DNA of 64,000 nucleotides from Gordonia sputi NBRC 100414 (GTDB lineage: Bacteria > Actinomycetota > Actinomycetes > Mycobacteriales > Mycobacteriaceae), in NCBI RefSeq assembly GCF_000248055.1, contig NZ_BAFC01000052.1, forward strand, positions 1 through 64,000, in the 5' to 3' direction. The translations under genes and the position numbers were made by a program. A model generated the notes under the pieces. It searched no databases. It saw nothing but the letters and a program-made list of their open reading frames with translations, and was not told the DNA's origin. Every line of letters starts with the position of its first letter. Positions within the stretch are counted from its first letter, which is position 1. Positions 852 to 10,793 of this stretch are shown here, one piece after another.

Positions 852-970
852 CCGTCCATGATGCGCGTCGCCTCACGTCGACTTCTGTGCGGGGCAGGTC
901 GTCGACCGACTTTGCCTCAGCATGACGCAAAATAAGTGCAAGTAGACGATGGGTACCCTCCCGTGGCACC

Positions 971-1060
971 ATGGATGGCGTGAATTTCCCCGGGGTGTGG
1001 CTCGCAGCACGACGCCACGTCGATTTCAAGCGCGTCTGTAGCGCTAGCTGTCGTCCTTAG
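971..1060 (+). CDS. Cys-containing leader peptide (29 codons) upstream of the sulfite reductase operon
   Basis: The frame ATG...TAG at 971-1060 encodes 29 residues whose second half reads RRHVDFKRVCSASCRP, with Cys codons (TGT) at residues 24 and 27 and the stop two codons after the second. This resembles the short actinobacterial leader peptides (R-x-HVD-...-SA-x-C) found in front of sulfur assimilation genes and proposed to sense cysteine by ribosome stalling. A TACCCT hexamer at 954-959 could be a -10, putting the 5' end within a few bases of the ATG; GTG codons at 980 and 995 are alternative starts. There is no Shine-Dalgarno sequence. The role as an attenuator is inferred from position, Cys content and the hairpins that follow. 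Confidence 0.7.
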   Translation: MDGVNFPGVWLAARRHVDFKRVCSASCRP

Positions 1061-1234
1061 ACGACGACCGGCCCCGAGAGTTCCCCGCACGCTGCGGGAA
1101 TGCCGGCAGATACCCGGTGGAACACCGACGGTGTCGCCCGACGGAACACCACCGTTGCGCCCACACGGAACCGCCCAGTCACAGCCCAGACCGCGCGAAA
1201 GCCGGTGCCCGTGCGCCCGGCATCAGGAGACTTC
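1061..1234 (+). promoter_or_regulatory. Putative attenuator leader of the sir-cysHDN-sirB operon
   Basis: This 174-base stretch lies between the leader-peptide stop and the sir ATG. It holds several inverted repeats: a strong hairpin at 1081-1100 (arms TTCCC.GCA and TGCGGGAA, one bulged C, loop CGC) and further complementary segments at about 1124-1155 (GGTGT with ACACC, and GTCG with CGAC). Alternative pairing that depends on ribosome position over the Cys codons would suit transcription or translation attenuation. No U-tract follows the first hairpin, so control of translation initiation or Rho access is as likely as intrinsic termination. Confidence 0.45.
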
Positions 1235-3049
1235 ATGACGTCCACGACAGACATCACGCCGAACAGTGGTGCAGGCTCGAACGAGCAGCCCGGTGACGGC
1301 GCGTCGGGTCAGAACGGCGATCGCCGCACGACCCGCGAACGTCCTGCCCGCACCCCCCGTGCGCAGAACGGCGACCGTCCCGCCCGTAAGCCCCGCCCGA
1401 CCAAGCGTCGCGCGGAGGGCCAGTGGAAGCTCGGGTATCGCGAGCCGCTGAACCCCAACGAGCAGGTCAAGAAGGACGACAACCCGCTCAACGTGCGCGC
1501 CCGCATCGAGAACATCTACTCCAAGCAGGGTTTCGACTCGATCGACAAGCAGGATCTGCGCGGCCGGATGCGCTGGTGGGGCCTCTACACGCAGCGCGCG
1601 CAGGGCTACGACGGCACCTGGACCGGCGACGAGAACATCGACATCCTCGAAGACAGCCACTTCATGATGCGCATCCGGTGCGACGCAGGCGCGCTCAACG
1701 TCGAACAGCTCCGCACGCTGGGCCAGATCTCCACCGAGTTCGCCCGCGACACCGCCGATCTGTCCGACCGTGAGAATGTCCAGTACCACTGGATTCGCAT
1801 CGAAGACGTCCCGACGATCTGGGAGCGCATCGAGGGCGTCGGCCTCAAGACCACCGAGGCGTGCGGCGACTGCCCACGCATCATCCTCGGCTCCCCGCTG
1901 GCAGGCGAGGCCATCGATGAGGTCCTCGACCCCACCCCCGCGATCGACGAGATCGTGCGCCGCTACATCGGCGACCCGCAGTACTCGAACCTCCCCCGCA
2001 AGTTCAAGACCGCCATCTCGGGTCTGCAGGACGTCAGTCACGAGACCAACGACATCGCCTTCATCGGTGTCGAGCATCCCGAGCACGGCCCCGGCCTCGA
2101 CCTCTGGGTCGGCGGCGGACTGTCGACGAACCCGATGCTGGCCCAGCGCGTCGGCGCCTGGATTCCGCTCGACGAGGTTCCCGACGTCTGGGAAGGCGTC
2201 GTGTCGATCTTCCGCGACTACGGCTACCGCCGTCTGCGCGCCAAGGCCAGGCTGAAGTTCCTCATCAAGGACTGGGGCATCGAGAAGTTCCGCCAGGTGC
2301 TCGAGGACGAGTACCTGCACCGCAAGCTGATCGACGGCCCCGCCCCCACCCCGCTCACGCAGCCGCGTGACCACGTCGGCGTGCAGAAGCTCAAGAACGG
2401 CCTCAACGCAGTCGGATTCGCCGCCATCGCCGGGCGCGTGACCGGCACCAAGCTCACCGCTGTCGCCGACGCCGCCGAGCGCGTCGGCTCCGACCGCATC
2501 CGATTCACGCCGTACCAGAAGCTCGTCGTGCTCGACGTCGCCGACGACAAGGTCGAGGAGCTCATCGCCGATCTGGCCAAGCTCGGACTCGTCGCCCGTG
2601 CGTCGAACTGGCGTCGAAACCTGATGGCGTGCAGTGGAATCGAGTTCTGCAAGCTCTCGTTCACCGAGACGCGCAAGCGCTCGCAGGTCCTCGTTCCCGA
2701 ACTCGAGGAACGCCTGGCAGACATCAACTCCGAGCTCGACGTCCCCATCACCGTGAACATCAACGGTTGCCCCAACTCGTGCGCGCGTTCACAGATCGCC
2801 GACATCGGATTCAAGGGCCAGCTCGTCGAGGACGCCGACGGCGGACAGACCGAGGGCTTCCAGGTACACCTGGGCGGCAGCCTCGGCCAGGATGCGGGCT
2901 TCGGCCGAAAACTGCGCCAGCACAAGGTGACATCCACCGAGCTCGGCGACTACATCGAACGCGTGGTCCGTAACTTCGTCGACCAACGCGAAGAAGGAGA
3001 GCGGTTCGCACAGTGGGCAGTGCGGGCCGACGAGGAGGCATTGCGATGA
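1235..3049 (+). CDS. sir: Ferredoxin-dependent assimilatory sulfite (nitrite/sulfite) reductase
   Basis: 604 residues. It reduces sulfite to sulfide with six electrons from ferredoxin, using siroheme and a 4Fe-4S cluster. The cluster ligands are visible as Cys466 and Cys472 (ACSGIEFC) and Cys512 and Cys516 (CPNSC). Tyr118 and Cys210 are 92 residues apart, the same spacing as the Tyr69-Cys161 crosslink pair of M. tuberculosis NirA/SirA, which favours sulfite as substrate. Residues 1-65 are an Arg/Lys-rich low-complexity extension. The ATG at 1235 has AGGAG upstream; an upstream in-frame ATG at 1100 lies inside the leader hairpin region and was not chosen. The stop overlaps the cysH start (ATGA). 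Confidence 0.95.
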   Translation: MTSTTDITPNSGAGSNEQPGDGASGQNGDRRTTRERPARTPRAQNGDRPARKPRPTKRRAEGQWKLGYREPLNPNEQVKKDDNPLNVRARIENIYSKQGFDSIDKQDLRGRMRWWGLYTQRAQGYDGTWTGDENIDILEDSHFMMRIRCDAGALNVEQLRTLGQISTEFARDTADLSDRENVQYHWIRIEDVPTIWERIEGVGLKTTEACGDCPRIILGSPLAGEAIDEVLDPTPAIDEIVRRYIGDPQYSNLPRKFKTAISGLQDVSHETNDIAFIGVEHPEHGPGLDLWVGGGLSTNPMLAQRVGAWIPLDEVPDVWEGVVSIFRDYGYRRLRAKARLKFLIKDWGIEKFRQVLEDEYLHRKLIDGPAPTPLTQPRDHVGVQKLKNGLNAVGFAAIAGRVTGTKLTAVADAAERVGSDRIRFTPYQKLVVLDVADDKVEELIADLAKLGLVARASNWRRNLMACSGIEFCKLSFTETRKRSQVLVPELEERLADINSELDVPITVNINGCPNSCARSQIADIGFKGQLVEDADGGQTEGFQVHLGGSLGQDAGFGRKLRQHKVTSTELGDYIERVVRNFVDQREEGERFAQWAVRADEEALR

Positions 3050-3795
3050 CGACGAGCACCCAGAGCAGGACCGGACGGCGGTTCAGCGAGGACGAGTTGC
3101 GTGAGATCGCTGCGCGCGGCGCAGCCGAACTCGGCGACAGCGCGACTCCCGAGGAGTTGCTGCGCTGGACGGCAGAGACGTTCGGCGACAACTTCGTCGT
3201 CGCGTCGAACATGCAGGATGCCGCGCTGGTCGATCTCGCCGTCAAGCACGTCGACCGCGCCCTGCTCGACGGCGACCCGGTGAAGGTGCTGTTCCTCGAC
3301 ACCGGCTACCACTTCGCCGAGACGATCGGTACCCGCGACGCCGTCGAGCAGGTCTACGGCGTCGACATGATCAACCTGACACCGCAGCACAGCGTCGCCG
3401 AGCAGGATGAACTGCTGGGCCGCAACCTGTTCGCCCGCAATCCCGGCGAGTGCTGCCGGCTGCGCAAGGTGGTTCCGCTGAAGGCAGGCTTGGGCAACTA
3501 CGACGCGTGGGTGACGGGCATCCGACGCGTCGAGGCGCCGACACGCGCCAACGCTCCGCTCATCTCGTTCGACGAGGGATTCGGTCTCGTCAAGATCAAC
3601 CCGATCGCCGCGTGGTCGGACGAGCAGATGCAGGACTACATCGACGCCAACGGCGTCCTCGTCAATCCCCTTGTCGACGAAGGCTATCCGTCGATCGGCT
3701 GTGCACCGTGCACCGCGAAACCCGAACCCGGATCCGATCCGCGCAGTGGCCGCTGGGCCGGTCGCGCCAAGACAGAATGTGGGCTCCACGCATGA
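3046..3795 (+). CDS. cysH: Adenosine 5'-phosphosulfate (APS) reductase
   Basis: 249 residues. It reduces APS to sulfite plus AMP with thioredoxin. The assimilatory APS-reductase 4Fe-4S ligands are present, CysCys136-137 and Cys219/Cys222 (GCAPC), as is the C-terminal nucleophile motif ECGLH with Cys245. The cluster cysteines identify an APS rather than PAPS reductase, so APS kinase is not needed for assimilation here. The ATG overlaps the sir stop by four bases and the stop overlaps the cysD start by four bases, indicating translational coupling. Confidence 0.96.
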   Translation: MTTSTQSRTGRRFSEDELREIAARGAAELGDSATPEELLRWTAETFGDNFVVASNMQDAALVDLAVKHVDRALLDGDPVKVLFLDTGYHFAETIGTRDAVEQVYGVDMINLTPQHSVAEQDELLGRNLFARNPGECCRLRKVVPLKAGLGNYDAWVTGIRRVEAPTRANAPLISFDEGFGLVKINPIAAWSDEQMQDYIDANGVLVNPLVDEGYPSIGCAPCTAKPEPGSDPRSGRWAGRAKTECGLHA

Positions 3796-4736
3796 CCATC
3801 ACCGAACCCTCAGCGAGCGCAGGACGTGCCGTGACCGAACCGGACGATTTCACCACCCTCGATGCCCTCGAATCCGAGGCCATCCACATCTTCCGCGAGG
3901 TGGCAGGCGAGTTCGAGCGCCCGGTGATCCTGTTCTCCGGCGGCAAGGACTCGACGGTGCTGCTGCACGTGGCACTCAAGGCCTTCTGGCCTGCGCCACT
4001 TCCGTTTTCGTTGCTCCACGTCGACACCGGCCACAACCTCCCCGAGGTTCTCGAGTTCCGCGACCAGGTCGTCGAGCGGCACAATCTGCGACTGCACGTC
4101 GCCAAGGTCGAGGACTACCTCGCCGACGGCAGGCTCACCGAGCGACCCGACGGTGTGCGTAACCCATTGCAGACCATCCCGCTTCTCGACGCCATCACAG
4201 AGAACCGTTTCGACGCAGTGTTCGGCGGTGGCCGACGCGATGAGGAGCGTTCGCGCGCCAAGGAGCGAATCTTCTCCCTGCGCAACGCATTCGGCCAGTG
4301 GGACCCCAAGCGTCAGCGCCCCGAGCTGTGGAATCTCTACAACGGTCGGCACGCTCCGGGCGAGCACGTGCGCGTCTTCCCGCTCTCCAACTGGACCGAG
4401 CTCGACGTGTGGCGCTACATCACGCGTGAGCAGGTCCTGCTCCCACCGATCTACTACGCGCACGAGCGCGACGTGTTCAACCGCGACGGAATGTGGATGA
4501 CATCCGGTTCGTGGGGCGGTCCACGCGAAGGCGAAGAGGTGCAACGACTCTCGGTGCGTTACCGCACCGTCGGCGACGGCTCGACGACCGGCGCGGTGCT
4601 CTCCGATGCCGCAACCAACGACGCGGTCCTCGCAGAGGTCGCCGCGTCCCGACTGACCGAACGCGGCGCAACCCGTGGCGACGATCGCGTCTCCGAAGCC
4701 GCCATGGAAGACCGCAAGCGCGAAGGATATTTCTGA
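3792..4736 (+). CDS. cysD: Sulfate adenylyltransferase subunit 2 (PP-loop ATP pyrophosphatase)
   Basis: 314 residues. With CysN it makes APS from sulfate and ATP. The PP-loop SGGKDST is at residues 49-55 and the family C-terminal end REGYF is present. An N-terminal stretch of about 20 residues precedes the conserved LDALESEAIHIFREV; a GTG at codon 14 is an alternative start, but the ATGA overlap with cysH favours 3792. The next gene starts on the last base of the stop codon (TGATG). Confidence 0.96.
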   Translation: MTITEPSASAGRAVTEPDDFTTLDALESEAIHIFREVAGEFERPVILFSGGKDSTVLLHVALKAFWPAPLPFSLLHVDTGHNLPEVLEFRDQVVERHNLRLHVAKVEDYLADGRLTERPDGVRNPLQTIPLLDAITENRFDAVFGGGRRDEERSRAKERIFSLRNAFGQWDPKRQRPELWNLYNGRHAPGEHVRVFPLSNWTELDVWRYITREQVLLPPIYYAHERDVFNRDGMWMTSGSWGGPREGEEVQRLSVRYRTVGDGSTTGAVLSDAATNDAVLAEVAASRLTERGATRGDDRVSEAAMEDRKREGYF

Positions 4737-6046
4737 TGGCATCGACCACCCAGCACGTCCCCGACCTGCTCCGCATCGCGACCGCGGGCAGCGTCGACGA
4801 CGGCAAGTCCACGCTCGTCGGCCGACTCCTCTACGACACCAAATCGGTGTTGGCAGACCAGATCGACGCCGTGACCAAGGCATCGGTCGACCGCGGTCTC
4901 GAAGGACCCGACCTCTCGCTGCTCGTCGACGGTCTGCGCGCCGAGCGCGAGCAGGGCATCACCATCGACGTCGCATACCGCTACTTCGCCACTCCCGCAC
5001 GGTCTTTCGTGTTGGCCGATACCCCCGGCCACGTCCAGTACACCCGCAACACGGTGTCCGGCGCGTCCACAGCACAGCTGGTCATGCTGCTCGTCGACGC
5101 CCGCAACGGGGTCGTCTCCCAGACGCGCCGCCACGCCGCGGTCATGGCGTTGCTCGGTGTGCCGCAGCTCGTGTTGGCGGTCAACAAGATCGACCTTGTC
5201 GACGACGCCGCGTCGGTGTTCGCCGAGATCTCCGCCGAGTTCGGTGAGCTGACTCGCACGCTCGGCTGGTCGCCCGAGCAGGTGACCTCGATTCCCGTGT
5301 CCGCATTACACGGCGACAACGTCGCCATCCGTTCGGAGAACACGCCGTTCTACGACGGCCCCACGCTGATCGAGCATCTCGAGACCGTGCCGAACGCCGT
5401 CGAACGCCACGACGAGGTCGGACTCCGCTTCCCCGTGCAGTACGTCATCCGACCGCGCACCCCCGAGTACCCCGACTACCGCGGATACGCCGGACAGATC
5501 GCTGCCGGTCGTGTCTCCGTCGGCGACGAGGTCACCGTTCTGCCGTCCGGCGTGCGTACCACCGTCACCCAGATCGACACGGCCGACGGTCAATTGGCGA
5601 CGGCACACACCGGCCGCAGCGTCACCCTGCTGCTCGCAGACGACGTCGACATCTCGCGCGGCGACCTCATCGCCGCCGCTGCCGACGCCCCCGAGCCCAT
5701 CAACCAGTTCACCGCGACGGTGTGCTGGCTCGCCGAGAAGCCGCTGCGCCCAGGCGCGCGGCTGCTCCTCAAGCACGGCACCAAGACCACCCAGGCCATC
5801 GTCGGTGGACTCGACGCCCTGTTCGACGAGCAGAACCTCACACTCGTCGACGCCCCGGACACCGTCGAGCTCAACCAGATCGGCCGCATCACGGTGCAGA
5901 CCGCGGAGCCGATCCCGGCAGACGACTACCAGGTGAGCCGCGAGTCGGGCAGCTTCCTGCTGATCGATCCGCAGGGCGGCAACACTCTGGCGGCAGGCCT
6001 GGTGGGCGACGCACTGTCGACGCTGCACCTCAAAGAGTTGGTGTGA
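4736..6046 (+). CDS. cysN: Sulfate adenylyltransferase subunit 1 (GTPase), without APS kinase domain
   Basis: 436 residues. It is an EF-Tu-like GTPase that drives APS synthesis by CysD. G1 is GSVDDGKST (18-26), G3 DTPGH (95-99) and G4 NKID (150-153), followed by the beta-barrel domains. The protein ends after the third domain, whereas the M. tuberculosis CysNC protein continues into an APS kinase (CysC) domain; none is fused here and no cysC is seen in the window. Its final codons overlap the GTG start of sirB. Confidence 0.95.
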   Translation: MASTTQHVPDLLRIATAGSVDDGKSTLVGRLLYDTKSVLADQIDAVTKASVDRGLEGPDLSLLVDGLRAEREQGITIDVAYRYFATPARSFVLADTPGHVQYTRNTVSGASTAQLVMLLVDARNGVVSQTRRHAAVMALLGVPQLVLAVNKIDLVDDAASVFAEISAEFGELTRTLGWSPEQVTSIPVSALHGDNVAIRSENTPFYDGPTLIEHLETVPNAVERHDEVGLRFPVQYVIRPRTPEYPDYRGYAGQIAAGRVSVGDEVTVLPSGVRTTVTQIDTADGQLATAHTGRSVTLLLADDVDISRGDLIAAAADAPEPINQFTATVCWLAEKPLRPGARLLLKHGTKTTQAIVGGLDALFDEQNLTLVDAPDTVELNQIGRITVQTAEPIPADDYQVSRESGSFLLIDPQGGNTLAAGLVGDALSTLHLKELV

Positions 6047-6773
6047 CACCGACACTGCTCCTCGTCGCGCACGGTAGCCGCGATCCGCGCTTCGGCGACA
6101 CCGCACGGCGCGTGCGGTCAGTCGTGGCACGCAGACTACCGTGCGTCGACGTCCGGCTCGGCTTCCTCGACCTCGACGCCCCTTCTGTCGCAGCACAACT
6201 CGCGGCACTGCGGGGCGAGTGCGTCGTCGTGCCGCTACTTCTCGCGCCCGGCTACCACAGTGAAGTCGACCTCCCTGCCCTGGTGGCCGAGCATCGTCGG
6301 GCACGCGTGACGACCACACAGGTCGTCGGGTCGTACCGACTGACCGATGCACTCGCGGATCGACTCGACGAGGCGGGCGCGCAACCCGGCGACGGCATCG
6401 TCGTGACTGCGGTCGGTTCGACGAATCCCACCGCCGCGCATGTGGTTCGACGCCGCGCCATCGAGTTGTCGACACGCCTGCACCGTCCGGTCGACGTGGT
6501 GTTCGCGACGAAGCTGGGCGCCGGCGACATCATGCTGCGCAACGCGATTCGACGACTCCGCACTGCCGGAGCGGAGCGCATCGCGCTCAGTCCGTACTTC
6601 TTGTCGGCGGGGCTGCTCACCGAACGCGTGGAGACCGCGCTCGATCGGCTGGTCTCCGACGCCGTCGTCGCCGGTCCGATCGGAACGCACCCGGTGCTTG
6701 TCGACGCGGTCGTCGACAGCTATCGCCGGGCATGCGCCGACGCGGCGGTCGACATGGACTCTGCCGCAGCTGA
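6043..6773 (+). CDS. sirB: Sirohydrochlorin ferrochelatase (CbiX/SirB family); true 3' end uncertain, no in-frame stop
   Basis: The GTG at 6043 overlaps the cysN stop (GTGA). Two CbiX-like halves are visible: LLVAHGSRD with metal-binding His10, APGYH with His72, then AVGSTNP, FATKLG and LSPYFLSAGLL in the second half. It probably inserts iron into sirohydrochlorin to make siroheme for Sir. Homologous-looking sequence ends near residue 235 (about 6750), but the frame has no stop and runs on antisense through cysA to 8046. A TGA in another frame at 6771 would give the expected length if one indel is assumed; the end given here reflects that. A perfect terminator at 6814-6846 also argues that the gene stops before it. 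Confidence 0.75.
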
Positions 6774-6813
6774 GTCGCCGCCTGCTGGGCCGCGAATCCC
6801 ATCATGTGCGAGT

Positions 6814-6846
6814 GCGGCGGCCGGGATGTCGCATCCCGGCCGCCGC
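6814..6846. terminator. Perfect 15-bp hairpin, bidirectional terminator between sirB and cysA
   Basis: Arms 6814-6828 and 6832-6846 are perfectly complementary over 15 bp around a TCG loop (left arm GCGGCGGCCGGGATG). It lies between the convergent sulfur operons and can serve both. There is no clear U-tract, which is common for actinobacterial terminators. Confidence 0.75.
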
Positions 6847-6858
6847 GTCCTCACACTC

Positions 6859-7854
6859 TTACACCTCGCTGAGCGCAGGCACCTTCGTCGCGCGGGCGTA
6901 GATGGTCTCTCCCTGCTGCAGGTGCAGCGCGTTGGCGTCGCCGCGGGTGATCTGCGCCTGGAACTCGTCGCCGGTCGCCGCGGCGACCAACTCCACCCTG
7001 GTCTCGAATCCGAGGTTCACCACGCGCTGGACCGTCGCCTTGATGACGCCGGTGTCCAGCGAGGCGTCGGCCGCGGGCAGCGCGAGTTCAGGGTTACGCC
7101 CGATGCGAATGTCGTGCGGGCGCACCAGTTCTCCGTTGAGTCGCACAGTGGAGCCGAGGAACGACGCAACGAACGGGTTGATCGGACGGTCGTAGAGATC
7201 ATCGGGTGCGCCGATCTGCTCGATCTTGCCCTTGTTGAGCACCGCGATCCGGTCGCTCACGTCGAGCGCCTCCTGCTGGTCGTGCGTGACGAGAACCGTC
7301 GTCACCTGCATGTCCTCGTGCAAGCGGCGCAACCACTTTCGCAGATCCTCACGCACCTTGGCGTCGAGCGCGCCGAACGGCTCGTCGAGCAGCAGCACCT
7401 TGGGATCGACTGCCAGCGCACGCGCGAGCGCCATGCGCTGACGCTGTCCGCCGGACAACTGAGCGGGAAAACGCTTCTGGAAGACCGTGAGTCCGACGAT
7501 GTCGAGCAGTTCGTCGACCTTGGCGTCGATGTCCTTCTTGGCACGCTTACGGATCTTGAGTCCGAACGCGATGTTGTCGCGCACCGTCAGGTGCTTGAAC
7601 GCCGCGTAGTGCTGGAACACGAAGCCGATGTCGCGCTTCTGCGGCGACGCACCGGAGACATCGTCACCGTTGATGACGATGGTCCCCGAATCGAGGTCGT
7701 CGAGACCTGCGATCGCACGCAGCAGCGTCGACTTACCGCTGCCGGACGGACCGAGCAGCGAGGTGAGCGAACCCGCTGGGATCTCGATCGAGACATCGTC
7801 GAGTGCGGCGAAGTCGCCGTATCGCTTGTTGGCACCAACCACCGAGATGGACAT
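6859..7854 (-). CDS. cysA: Sulfate/thiosulfate ABC transporter ATP-binding protein
   Basis: 331 residues. It is the ATPase of the sulfate importer. Walker A is GPSGSGKST (35-43), followed by a Q-loop (VFQHYAAF), signature LSGGQRQ, Walker B LLLDEPFGALD and the H-loop VTHDQQEA. The C-terminal 90 residues form a TOBE-like regulatory domain. The ATG at 7854 is one base after the cysW stop. It is the last gene of subI-cysT-cysW-cysA and faces sirB across a shared terminator. Confidence 0.95.
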   Translation of the reverse strand: MSISVVGANKRYGDFAALDDVSIEIPAGSLTSLLGPSGSGKSTLLRAIAGLDDLDSGTIVINGDDVSGASPQKRDIGFVFQHYAAFKHLTVRDNIAFGLKIRKRAKKDIDAKVDELLDIVGLTVFQKRFPAQLSGGQRQRMALARALAVDPKVLLLDEPFGALDAKVREDLRKWLRRLHEDMQVTTVLVTHDQQEALDVSDRIAVLNKGKIEQIGAPDDLYDRPINPFVASFLGSTVRLNGELVRPHDIRIGRNPELALPAADASLDTGVIKATVQRVVNLGFETRVELVAAATGDEFQAQITRGDANALHLQQGETIYARATKVPALSEV

Positions 7855-7855
7855 G

Positions 7856-8785
7856 TCAGACTCTTTCTTTCTCGTGAAGTACCTGCTGCGAATCGATGTT
7901 CTCGGGCGCATACGGCGGGGTCAGATGGATGTCGTCGGGCTCGGCGGCGTCGTCGCCGGTGGCCGTACTCGCCTCCGCGTACCGGTTGCGTGCACGTCGA
8001 TCGACGAACGACATGGCGACCAGGACGAGGACCGCGACGAGCATGAGGAGCGTCGCGGCGGCGTAGGCGCCGTACTCGTTGTAGTCGTCGGTGTAGCGGG
8101 AGTGCACCAGCAGTGTCAGCGTCTGCGAGATGCCGGGGTAATTCGATGACACCATCGTCACGGCGCCGTACTCGCCGAGCGCGCGTGCGACGGTCAGCAC
8201 GATGCCGTAGGTCAGGCCCCAGCGGATCGCGGGAAGCGTGATCCGCCAGAAGGTCTGCCACCCACTGGCGCCGAGGGTCGCAGCTGCCTGTTCCTGCTCG
8301 GTACCTATCTCGCGGAGGACCGGCTCCACCTCACGCGCCACGAAGGGCAGTGTGACGAAGAGCGTCGCCAGCACAAGGCCCGGGAAGCCGAAGATGACGC
8401 GGAAGCCGAGGCTCTCGACGCCGCCGAACCATCCCCCGTATCCCCACAGCAGGATCAGCGCGACACCGGCGACCACGGGCGACACCGCGAACGGGAGGTC
8501 GACGACGGCCTGCAGAACACCCTTTCCGGGGAATCTGCCTCGGGCGAGCGCCAGCGCGATGATGATGCCGAAGATGACGTTCAGCGGCACCACGATGACC
8601 ACGATCAGCAGGCTCAGCTGCAGCGCCGAGATCGCGGCCGGTGTAGTGATCCACTCCCAGAACTGGCCGAGGCCGTGTTCGAAGGACCGCCAGAAGATCA
8701 GTGCCACGGGCACGATCAGTAGGACGAACAAATACACGAGCGCGATGGTGCGGAGCCCGTATCGGGTCGACGCCGACAGTTTCAT
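7856..8785 (-). CDS. cysW: Sulfate ABC transporter permease CysW
   Basis: 309 residues with about six membrane segments, the first at roughly residues 13-33. The permease loop that docks with CysA is seen as EQAAATLGASGWQTFWRITLP (EAA motif). The C-terminal 45 residues are a hydrophilic, acidic tail. It pairs with CysT to form the membrane channel. Its start overlaps the cysT stop by four bases. Confidence 0.94.
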   Translation of the reverse strand: MKLSASTRYGLRTIALVYLFVLLIVPVALIFWRSFEHGLGQFWEWITTPAAISALQLSLLIVVIVVPLNVIFGIIIALALARGRFPGKGVLQAVVDLPFAVSPVVAGVALILLWGYGGWFGGVESLGFRVIFGFPGLVLATLFVTLPFVAREVEPVLREIGTEQEQAAATLGASGWQTFWRITLPAIRWGLTYGIVLTVARALGEYGAVTMVSSNYPGISQTLTLLVHSRYTDDYNEYGAYAAATLLMLVAVLVLVAMSFVDRRARNRYAEASTATGDDAAEPDDIHLTPPYAPENIDSQQVLHEKERV

Positions 8786-9681
8786 CGGTCCAGTTCCTCA
8801 CGCTTGGTCTGGCGCCGACCGACGATACGCAGCACGAGAAGTGCGACGAAGGCGATCAGCAGGAGTACGACCGAGATGGCTGCGGCATTGACCGGCTCGT
8901 CGATCTCGATCTGTTGCTGGATGTACTGCGAGGCGACCTGGGTCTTGCCCGGGATATTGCCGCCGATGAGGACCACGGAACCGAACTCACCGATCGCGCG
9001 GGTGAACGCGAGACCCGCGCCGGTGAGGATTGCGGGCAGGAGCGACGGCAGCACGATCTTGCGGAAGATGGTGCCGTTCCTGGCCCCGAGAACCGCCGCG
9101 GCCTCCTCGACGTCGGTGTCGAGTTCGATCAACACCGGCTGCACCTGACGGACAACGAACGGCAGCGTGACGAACGTCAGGGCAATGATCAACGCGGGCT
9201 TCGTGGCCGCGAGATGGATGTCGATGGGACTGTTCGGCCCGTACAGCGAGAGCAGCACGAGGCTGGCGACGATGGTCGGCAGCGCGAACGGAAGATCGAT
9301 GATCGCGTTCACAAAGCCCTTGCCGCGGAAGTCATCTCGCACCAACACCCACGCGATGATCGTGCCGAAGACGACGTTGATGAGTGCGGCGACGATCGAC
9401 ACGAGCACGGTGATCCCGATGGCGTCGAGAGCATTCTCGTCGGTGACAGCATCCCAGAAGCCACTCCAGCCGTTGTCGAACGACTGAACGGTGATCGCGG
9501 CCAGCGGCAGCAGGACGATGATGCTCAGCCAGAGCCACGCCGTACCGATTGCCGCGGGGCTCACACCCGCGAAGGTCCGCGAGCGACCGAGGAATCCCTT
9601 CGGCGGCTGCGAACTCGACGACGGTGCGTGCTGGGCCGACGCATTGTCGGTAGCGCTCGCCACCTCTCCTGCGGCGGTCAT
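8782..9681 (-). CDS. cysT: Sulfate ABC transporter permease CysT (CysU)
   Basis: 299 residues, with a hydrophilic N-terminal tail of about 40 residues and then six predicted membrane helices. The EAA loop reads EEAAAVLGARNGTIFRKIVLP, and ALPTIVASLVLLSLYG and RAIGEFGSV are typical of the family. It is the inner-membrane partner of CysW. The start overlaps the subI stop by four bases. Confidence 0.94.
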   Translation of the reverse strand: MTAAGEVASATDNASAQHAPSSSSQPPKGFLGRSRTFAGVSPAAIGTAWLWLSIIVLLPLAAITVQSFDNGWSGFWDAVTDENALDAIGITVLVSIVAALINVVFGTIIAWVLVRDDFRGKGFVNAIIDLPFALPTIVASLVLLSLYGPNSPIDIHLAATKPALIIALTFVTLPFVVRQVQPVLIELDTDVEEAAAVLGARNGTIFRKIVLPSLLPAILTGAGLAFTRAIGEFGSVVLIGGNIPGKTQVASQYIQQQIEIDEPVNAAAISVVLLLIAFVALLVLRIVGRRQTKREELDR

Positions 9682-10793
9682 TGCTTACTGCCTTCGTTGT
9701 AGATCTTGGTGATCGAGCCCTTGGTACCGAAGAGTGCGTTGTCCACGGCTTTCCACCCCTTCAGGTCTTTGCCCTTGTTCTTGGCCGCGGTGCCTTTACC
9801 CAGGGTCTTACCGAGTTCGTCGATTGTCCATAGTTTCGTGATGTCGCCGGGGAAAAGGGATTTCGTCTCGGCGATCACCGAAGGCACCACCGGCCGGAAC
9901 CCCTGCTTGGCCCAGATGTGTTGTGCCTCATCGGTGAACAGGAAGTCGACGAAAGCCTTGGCCGCCGGCAGGTCCTTCGACGTATTGACCACTGCGACAG
10001 GATTCTCGATCTTGAACGTCTGCGGCGGAATCAGGTACTCGACCTGCGAACTCTCCACCGCTCCGGCGTTCTTGCGCTGCAACATGATCGCTTCGTTCTC
10101 GTAGCTGATCAGGACATCGCCCTGACCCTGCTGGAACGTGGTGGTCGCCTCACGCCCCGACTTCGGACGCACCTTCACGTGGTTGTGCACGAGGTCGCTC
10201 ACGTAGTCGAGTCCGGCCTGCGGGTTCTTGCCACCCTCGCTCTTGGCCGCATACGGCGCGAGGAGGTTCCATTTGGCGGAACCCGAGCTGCCCGGGTCGG
10301 GGGTGATCACCTGCACGCCCGGCTTGAGTAGGTCGTCCCAGTCGTGAATGTTCTTGGGATTGCCCTTGCGCACCACGAGGGCGACGACCGAGCCGAACGG
10401 GACGCTGTTGTTCGGTTCGGCCTTCTTCCAGTCCTCGTCGACGAGGCCAGCCTTGACCAGACGCGTCACGTCGGGCTCGACGGAGAAGTTGACGACGTCG
10501 GCCGGCACGTGGCGAGCGACCTTGCGCGACTGGTCGCCCGACGCCCCGTACGACGCCGAGAAGCCGATGCCGTTGCCCTCGGGGGTTGCGCGGAAGGCGG
10601 GGATGATCTTGTCGAATCCGGGCTTCGGAGTCGCGTAGGCGACGAGATCGAGGTGGCGACTGCCGCTCGAGATGTCGACACCGTTGGGCGTGTCCGTCGA
10701 GCCGCCCCCACACCCGGCGACCAGTGCAACAGTTAGCGTCAATAAGCACGTCACTACTGGTAGGCGCCATCTGCGGGCCTGACTTGGACTCAC
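9678..10793 (-). CDS. subI: Sulfate-binding lipoprotein of the ABC importer
   Basis: 371 residues. A signal peptide ends in the lipobox LVAGC with Cys28 as the predicted lipidated residue, so the protein is anchored outside the membrane to capture sulfate for CysTWA. The mature part is a periplasmic-binding-protein fold (GSSGSAKWNLLAPY, QGQGDVLISYENEA, the family's sulfate-site and hinge segments). The GTG start at 10793 has AGGAT just upstream. It is first gene of the importer operon, with a sigma70-type promoter at 10848-10876. Confidence 0.94.
   Translation of the reverse strand: MSPSQARRWRLPVVTCLLTLTVALVAGCGGGSTDTPNGVDISSGSRHLDLVAYATPKPGFDKIIPAFRATPEGNGIGFSASYGASGDQSRKVARHVPADVVNFSVEPDVTRLVKAGLVDEDWKKAEPNNSVPFGSVVALVVRKGNPKNIHDWDDLLKPGVQVITPDPGSSGSAKWNLLAPYAAKSEGGKNPQAGLDYVSDLVHNHVKVRPKSGREATTTFQQGQGDVLISYENEAIMLQRKNAGAVESSQVEYLIPPQTFKIENPVAVVNTSKDLPAAKAFVDFLFTDEAQHIWAKQGFRPVVPSVIAETKSLFPGDITKLWTIDELGKTLGKGTAAKNKGKDLKGWKAVDNALFGTKGSITKIYNEGSKQ

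Follow-up and report, generated by a model that had tools for sequence, protein, structure and literature searches.

The question raised by this locus is whether the short open reading frame located upstream of the sulfite reductase operon of Gordonia sputi NBRC 100414 acts as a cysteine-sensing leader peptide and, if so, by which route its translation could be relayed to the downstream genes. The stretch of DNA analyzed, referred to here as the window, comprises 64,000 nucleotides. The frame proposed in an initial annotation of this DNA does occur on the forward strand at 971-1060 and encodes 29 residues (MDGVNFPGVWLAARRHVDFKRVCSASCRP), with TGT codons at 1037-1039 and 1049-1051 and the two cysteines three residues apart (CSASC). 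The genes assigned downstream of it, sir, cysH, cysD, cysN and CbiX/sirB, were all recovered on the same strand by NCBIfam and Pfam matches (Table 1), and 174 nt separate the stop codon of the upstream open reading frame (uORF) from the ATG of sir. Among the matches listed, the closest named sir is that of Gordonia jacobaea (100% identity, rounded). The reading favored here, to which a probability of about 0.7 is given, is that of an Ms4527A-type attenuator, leaderless and responsive to cysteine, in which a translational relay to sir is the likeliest mechanism and Rho the main rival.

The position of the cysteines says little by itself. Of the frames of 10-45 codons in the window, 63 carry at least two cysteines in their last ten codons; such an ending is uninformative alone, and the case for a leader rests on conservation. 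The peptide was matched by NF042936, the 'Ms4527A family Cys-rich leader peptide' model, with 46.1 bits for the 29-residue form and 46.5 bits for a 26-residue form (cut-off 45), and in genome-search mode the score was 44.7 bits, just below the same cut-off, so that membership is borderline. The location described for this family, before nirA/sir, is also that of the window leader. The accessible text of Shell 2015 (PMC4633059) describes conserved leaderless small proteins upstream of nirA/Msmeg_4527, with a cysteine-rich leader at the orthologous locus in both M. smegmatis and M. tuberculosis, and suggests cysteine attenuation for the nirA/Msmeg_4527 leader. The initial proposal that the leader of the sir operon senses Cys fits, at the level of sequence, this family match, the published nirA leader, the conservation of the peptide and the fixed codon 24 described below. 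A search of Rfam families gave 0 matches at E <= 1 in 700-1400.

A strong match to the peptide (E <= 2e-7) was found in 49 of 59 same-genus genomes, nine weaker same-genus matches likewise precede sir, and at E <= 0.01 a match was present in 323 of 401 genomes of the family. The loci compared, 94 after the removal of 14 duplicates, comprise 58 of the 59 same-genus genomes (the window included; G040 is not among them) and 36 loci from other genera, picked among the matches listed for the 401-genome family search. The sir gene lies downstream in 93 of these 94 loci, the window included, and the contig of the 94th ends before sir. An overlapping named set of 80 loci was also used, four of which gave no leader, their records beginning 7 to 90 bases before the match. 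At the class level, 85 loci were taken as part of the matches listed, ten of them without recognizable motif and left uncounted. As a side observation, the sir genes of L255 (titled Kitasatospora arboriphila) and L250 (a Maritimibacter MAG) are 86% and 92% identical, respectively, to that of the window, and the leader peptide of L255 is identical to Williamsia-type leaders; these are possibly mislabelled or mixed assemblies.

Table 1. Features of the sir leader region and of the downstream genes, with window coordinates.
Feature	Coordinates	Strand	Evidence
Imperfect inverted repeat TTTGCCTCA-GCA-TGACGCAAA, upstream of the promoter	911..931		From sequence
AAGTAGAC block, candidate -35 region	940..947	+	At -40 (57) or -39 (7), 64/87 unique upstreams
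-10 element TGGCACCAT (TGG + hexamer CACCAT), includes AT of ATG 971	964..972	+	Conserved spacing
Leader peptide gene (uORF), GTG start, predicted leaderless; MNFPGVWLAARRHVDFKRVCSASCRP, stop TAG	980..1060	+	NF042936 46.5 bits; RTG 92/94
Codons 11-18 RRHVDFKR, core of conserved peptide motif	1010..1033	+	Synonymous/replacement counts
Cys codon 20 (TGT), optional	1037..1039	+	Cys in 64/94 loci: 8 TGT, 56 TGC
Cys codon 24 (TGT), proposed sensor codon	1049..1051	+	TGT in 206/206 unique leaders with Cys24
Stop-codon hairpin P3: TGTCGTC (1049-1055), loop CTTA, GACGACG (1060-1066)	1049..1066	+	Covariation
CAGCCC element between uORF and sir	1182..1187	+	Commonest hexamer, 80/89 unique leaders
AGGAG, Shine-Dalgarno site of sir	1225..1229	+	From sequence; sir ATG at 1235
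sir/nirA-type sulfite reductase gene	1235..3049	+	Pfam NIR_SIR 2.5e-58
cysH frame (phosphoadenylyl-sulfate reductase)	3013..3795	+	NF002537 246.9 bits, cut-off 154
cysD-containing frame, match from near residue 137	3450..4736	+	TIGR02039 459.9 bits, cut-off 396.6
cysN-containing frame, match from near residue 93	4493..6046	+	TIGR02034 528.7 bits, cut-off 336.1
CbiX/sirB domain frame, best match residues 117-197	5722..8046	+	Pfam CbiX 8.6e-24

The start of the peptide was placed by comparison of the upstream sequences. An RTG codon occurs at the position of 980 in 92 of the 94 loci (79 GTG, 13 ATG), the exceptions being L097, with no RTG there, and L098, with a GTG one codon later, and in 75 of the 76 leaders of the named set. 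The 87 unique upstream sequences derive from the 92 RTG loci, and the presence of RTG in 87/87 is true by selection because L097 and L098 were left out. In 80 of these upstreams the pattern TG[GC]CANN[AG]T is placed at -16 relative to the RTG, in five it is at -15, and two lack it; the end of the TGGCANNAT-type element is 7-8 nt before the RTG in 85/87. An ATG at the position of 971 is present in 75/87, where it sits inside this element, and the two codons that follow it vary among loci. Since the -10 hexamer occupies 967-972, transcription is expected from about 979-980, and ATG 971 therefore probably lies outside the mRNA. The true start is probably GTG 980, leaderless, which would give a peptide of 26 residues. 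Of the near-leaderless start proposed initially, the leaderless character was retained as probable and the position at 971 was abandoned, given the RTG at 980 in 92/94 loci and the location of ATG 971 within the -10 element. With this locus a known control mechanism would be extended to Gordonia, and the start position of its peptide is probably to be corrected.

The candidate -35 block is absent from 23 of the 87 unique upstreams. The inverted repeat that precedes the promoter is possibly a binding site for a sulfur regulator. By eye, and with no statistics, a similar TCA-N3-TGA palindrome was seen at this place in many Gordonia loci, and several Rhodococcus and Nocardia-type loci have a TTTCCC..GGGAAA-like repeat instead.

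The transcript start, the stall, the response to cysteine and the relay to sir are the parts of the attenuator that we infer. Transcription would begin at about 979-980, and the mRNA would open with the 26-codon peptide gene (980-1060). With ample Cys-tRNA, ribosomes would pass along the whole uORF and little translation of sir would follow. A shortage of Cys-tRNA would stall a ribosome whose decoding site is occupied by UGU24 (1049-1051) and whose exit tunnel contains the conserved L8..RRHxD..R18 peptide, and this stalled ribosome would block the stop-codon hairpin (1049-1066) and other leader structure, rendering sir translatable. The selection acting on codon 24 supports it as the putative stall site.

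The description of the leader as hairpin-rich was not borne out, as its fold is no better than those of shuffled sequences (z -1.05, with 32 of 200 shuffles at least as stable), and a single hairpin covaries. This hairpin, which spans the uORF stop codon, has a mean stem score of 8.69 versus 7.32 (sd 0.17, maximum 7.79) with the 3' arms swapped (52 unique sir-type sequences). Downstream of the uORF stop, L012-L015 and L019-L021 carry extra copies resembling the arms of the hairpin (TGTCGTC/GACGACG-like), which could give alternative pairings. For 88 sequences the consensus fold of the uORF contains one 2-bp stem; restricted to the 68 sequences with a stop at codon 27, it contains one 4-bp stem. 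The latter cannot show covariation because its columns hardly vary, and with columns so nearly invariant it is not claimed as a supported structure; L114 was left out of the alignment used to check this column variation, and L013 out of another comparison.

Two outcomes of stalling had been envisaged, namely the prevention of termination and the release of the sir ribosome site. The former finds no counterpart in 800-1400, where 0 terminator-like sites were detected (0.4 expected by chance). The latter is possible, although the gain in accessibility is small and the pairing is close to that of shuffled sequences. With a ribosome at codon 24, the predicted accessibility of the sir Shine-Dalgarno site, a region in which CAGGAG is present in 72 of 89 unique leaders, rises from 0.31 to 0.35 (mean, 84 leaders), and a ribosome at codons 21, 22, 27 or 28 gives an equal gain. 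The best uORF windows for pairing with the Shine-Dalgarno site are, on average, codons 21-26 (-6.1 to -6.3 kcal/mol); this pairing is little above that of shuffled sequences (mean z -0.53), and equally good pairing is reached by 25% of the remaining 18-mers of a leader. The models thus hint, weakly, that the end of the uORF might sequester the sir Shine-Dalgarno site. These counts depend on several exclusions: L097 and L098 were left out of the uORF consensus fold and of the accessibility, Shine-Dalgarno pairing, upstream and frame counts; L017, L066, L078 and L099, with no called sir start, out of the hexamer, accessibility, pairing, selection and frame analyses; and L027, L029 and L070, with no Shine-Dalgarno match, out of the accessibility, pairing and frame analyses.

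The best placed of the alternatives, although unlikely, is a Rho-dependent attenuation of transcription, in which the position of the ribosome on the uORF would decide the access of Rho to RNA polymerase in the C-rich leader. It agrees with the lack of an intrinsic terminator in 800-1400 and might give a role to the CAGCCC element of 80/89 unique leaders, which is found 45-62 nt before the sir start in 62/89. Rho was also suggested for terminator-less mycobacterial cys leaders in the accessible part of Seliverstov 2005, although the prediction is there called rather weak by its own authors. A further difficulty is that a ribosome stalled at codon 24 would leave the remaining leader naked, so that Rho would not obviously be blocked. 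As a separate observation on CAGCCC, the hexamer often lies within stems that differ in sequence, and stems of at least five pairs can be drawn around it in many leaders (no control).

Returning to the attenuator that responds to Cys-tRNA, the substitution pattern indicates that the leader is under selection as a peptide, because all 90 changes counted on the Sir tree at seven residues (G5, L8, R11, R12, H13, D15 and R18) are synonymous, with 0 replacements (87 loci; L093, L097 and L098 were left out of this count). Codons 2-4 show 35 synonymous and 51 replacement changes on the same tree. The invariant residues vary in codon, R11 being encoded by six codons and D15 by GAC in 92 cases versus GAT in 77. 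The seven amino-acid-invariant residues also suit a regulated arrest peptide, which would sense a small molecule (e.g., cysteine or a precursor) in the ribosome tunnel and not a shortage of Cys-tRNA, and the second leader of the genome, described below, has RR-x-ID-F-x-RV too, with partly different codons. However, at least one Cys codon is retained in 94/94 loci and codon 24 has an invariant, though synonymous, third base, both of which would be needless for a pure peptide sensor; an arrest peptide of this type is considered improbable.

The number of cysteines varies among leaders: 22 of the 94 loci have one, 54 have two and the other 18 between three and seven. The cysteine at codon 20, initially regarded as an extra one, is common yet optional, as 64/94 loci have it and 22/94 leaders contain a single Cys, a count that also speaks against a polycysteine run as the defining trait. 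Codon 24 is TGT in 93/94 loci, and the remaining locus has no Cys there. Across the actinobacterial class TGT24 was found in 206/206 unique leaders with Cys24, whereas the other Cys registers hold 207 TGC and 146 TGT; a probability derived from this count is not an independent-sample value because the sequences are related by descent. The count covers leaders with the motif recognized by pattern, and its 120 sir-type sequences are those of the 94 loci and the named set, de-duplicated by uORF sequence. Cys24 is missing from four of 210 unique leaders, two of which have their last Cys at 22 (TGT) and two only a TGC at 20. Within the named set TGT24 occurs in 73/76 leaders; in the remaining three, whose peptides end in SCLG, the final Cys stands at 22 and is also TGT. 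In L093 a frame change was observed that removes Cys24 and leaves only Cys20 (TGC).

Usage of TGT outside codon 24 is uneven. In the sir frames that follow the leaders it makes up 15 of 517 Cys codons, and in the longest open frames of the class-level loci, which are frames and not necessarily genes, 80 of 330. The motif is present in 75 of the 85 class-level loci, with codon 24 as TGT in 74 and as a TGA stop in one; elsewhere in these motif loci TGC prevails over TGT, by 29 to 2 at Cys17 and by 19 to 5 at Cys22. The class-level leader of L235 (RRHIDLLRVCSAI) is otherwise typical, with TGT24 replaced by TGA. TGT is also found at Cys17 in 16/16 unique rhodanese-type leaders of the genus (L128-L157), versus 2/30 unique class-level leaders, and at Cys22 in 15/16 unique sir-type leaders. 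The TGT at Cys17 of the rhodanese-type leaders may reflect shared descent or a second constrained codon; codon 24 is set apart by its invariance in every group. Because it is fixed while the codons of R11, D15 and R18 vary, codon 24 is the likely sensor, and a single Cys would seem to suffice. The alignment of Gordonia and its relatives, which the initial annotation proposed as a check for conserved Cys codons and covarying stems, upholds codon 24 and one stem, and does not show a constant Cys at codon 20.

The third base of codon 24 might instead be fixed by RNA pairing. TGT24 forms the outer part of the covarying hairpin in Gordonia, and its change to TGC costs more than 0.5 kcal/mol of predicted Shine-Dalgarno pairing in 40% of 83 leaders. 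Clear stems are carried by Gordonia and none was seen class-wide, so the hairpin does not explain the fixed codon. As a class-wide cause of UGU24 it is not supported, since neither arm covaries at that scale (8.35 versus 8.47 swapped for the downstream arm; 8.70 versus 8.84 for the upstream arm), yet TGT is present in 73/73 unique class-level leaders with Cys24; little credence is therefore left to pairing. Hungry-codon frameshifting at UGU24, by which ribosomes in the +1 frame would reach the sir start and couple its translation, was rejected as having next to no likelihood, because, although this frame is open in the window from 1050 to 1238, with a TGA overlapping the sir ATG, and +1 stops are fewer than under first-order resampling (46 versus 76, 84 leaders), the frame statistics are against it: the +1 frame is open in just 44/84 leaders (34.5 expected), the +2 frame of the window is open too, and the three possible frames of sir with respect to the uORF occur 30, 29 and 25 times, so that no frame is held.

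In 136 unique contexts the base after TGT24 is C 114 times, T 14 times and A 8 times, and never G, although genomes of this type often have G as the first base of a codon. Decoding is weakened by a pyrimidine on the 3' side. ARAGORN found one tRNA-Cys gene in the genome's tRNA loci, with anticodon GCA (1/46 Rfam tRNA matches uncalled), and UGU must therefore be read by wobble. It is tentatively proposed, at somewhat less than even odds, that the leaders of the actinobacterial class are nascent-peptide-assisted sensors with one obligatory, wobble-read UGU Cys codon at register 24. The conserved L8..R11..[IV]14-D15..R18-V19 nascent peptide would position the ribosome at UGU24, and the number of Cys codons would be secondary, one being sufficient. 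The switch would be tuned by the weakest-decoded Cys codon context, because UGC24 occurs in 0/206 leaders and G after UGU in 0/136. The reading of UNN codons is influenced by tRNA modifications that depend on sulfur, and the switch may also respond to how far tRNA-Cys carries them. Wobble decoding would count as a tuned element in the sensing of nutrients if replacing UGU by the synonymous UGC were enough to disrupt sulfur regulation. Neither a fixed UGU codon nor the peptide-level selection appeared among the literature matches listed, a search that did not extend to Canestrari 2020, and the fixed UGU24 across the class is possibly new.

The initial annotation also held that control would act on reduction and not on uptake. 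This fits the window as far as two patterns can show (the -10 pattern modelled on the sir leader), which revealed no leader before the sulfate-binding-protein gene (9678-10793, reverse strand), and fails in the wider family, in which three of 19 downstream frames are NMT1-like substrate-binding-protein genes. Matches to NF042934 were obtained in 49 of 60 sampled class genomes at E <= 0.001, and 44/60 were over the cut-off. A Pfam match was obtained for 16 of the 19 class-level downstream frames searched: sulfite reductase (3), PAPS reductase (2), APS kinase (1), rhodanese (3), DUF4395 (2), NMT1-like binding protein (3) and luciferase-like monooxygenase (2). The last two of these kinds of protein function in sulfonate utilization. 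The second leader of the genome (L118, near 1490-1620 of C113; MQLRRELLLTRRRAIDFCRVADCCCL) precedes a frame with rhodanese domains and has RR-x-ID-F-x-RV in common with the sir leader. It scores 34.2 bits on NF042933, below the cut-off of 45, and leaders of its type were matched in 51 of 59 same-genus genomes at E <= 1e-4. A TACCCT was noted 7 nt upstream of its ATG.

Among known systems, the Ms4527A leader (NF042936) is the closest to the window leader, with which it has in common the position before sir/nirA, the RRH[IV]D..R core, Cys near the end and a predicted leaderless RTG. Compared by family profile, the window leader differs in that its Cys codons are three residues apart and 22/94 related loci have one Cys, and in Gordonia a covarying hairpin spans the uORF stop. 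NF042934 (cis_reg_atten, 'putative leader peptide') and Ms5788A (NF042933) have the same LxxRRxIDLxRV...C register; the window peptide scores 15.2 bits on NF042934, below the cut-off of 27, and other genes lie downstream there, whereas another Gordonia form, MTSPGVWLTMRRHIDLKRVASASCRP, reaches 30.5 bits on the same model.

The classical trp-type attenuator has an intrinsic terminator, which was not found for the window leader in 800-1400. The uORFC-8-2 attenuator located before cysS in Rhodobacterales is likewise a uORF with Cys codons and, according to the accessible text (PMC8632094), differs from the window leader in its tandem Cys codons, the dominance of UGC and an intrinsic terminator at its end. 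For Mycobacterium, P. acnes and B. longum, cysteine leader peptides that lack terminators were described (Seliverstov 2005, accessible part); they resemble the window leader in being short ORFs with Cys near the stop, located before cys or cbs genes, and differ in their runs of Cys codons, the main text containing neither 'TGT' nor 'UGU'. Translation attenuation of cysteine genes by stalling is described in the accessible portions of two further reports (PMC9031893; PMC13236596), and papers citing Canestrari 2020 attribute to it cysteine-dependent translation attenuation by leaderless polycysteine ORFs in M. smegmatis. As far as those citing papers describe them, the polycysteine attenuators are similar to the window leader in that a leaderless short Cys ORF precedes a cysteine-metabolism operon; the Cys codons of the window leader are non-contiguous, and the cysteine response reported there is a predicted one for the window leader. 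By its sequence the locus is a further member of the known Cys-leader kind and, because its Cys codons are non-contiguous, not a polycysteine leader in the strict sense.
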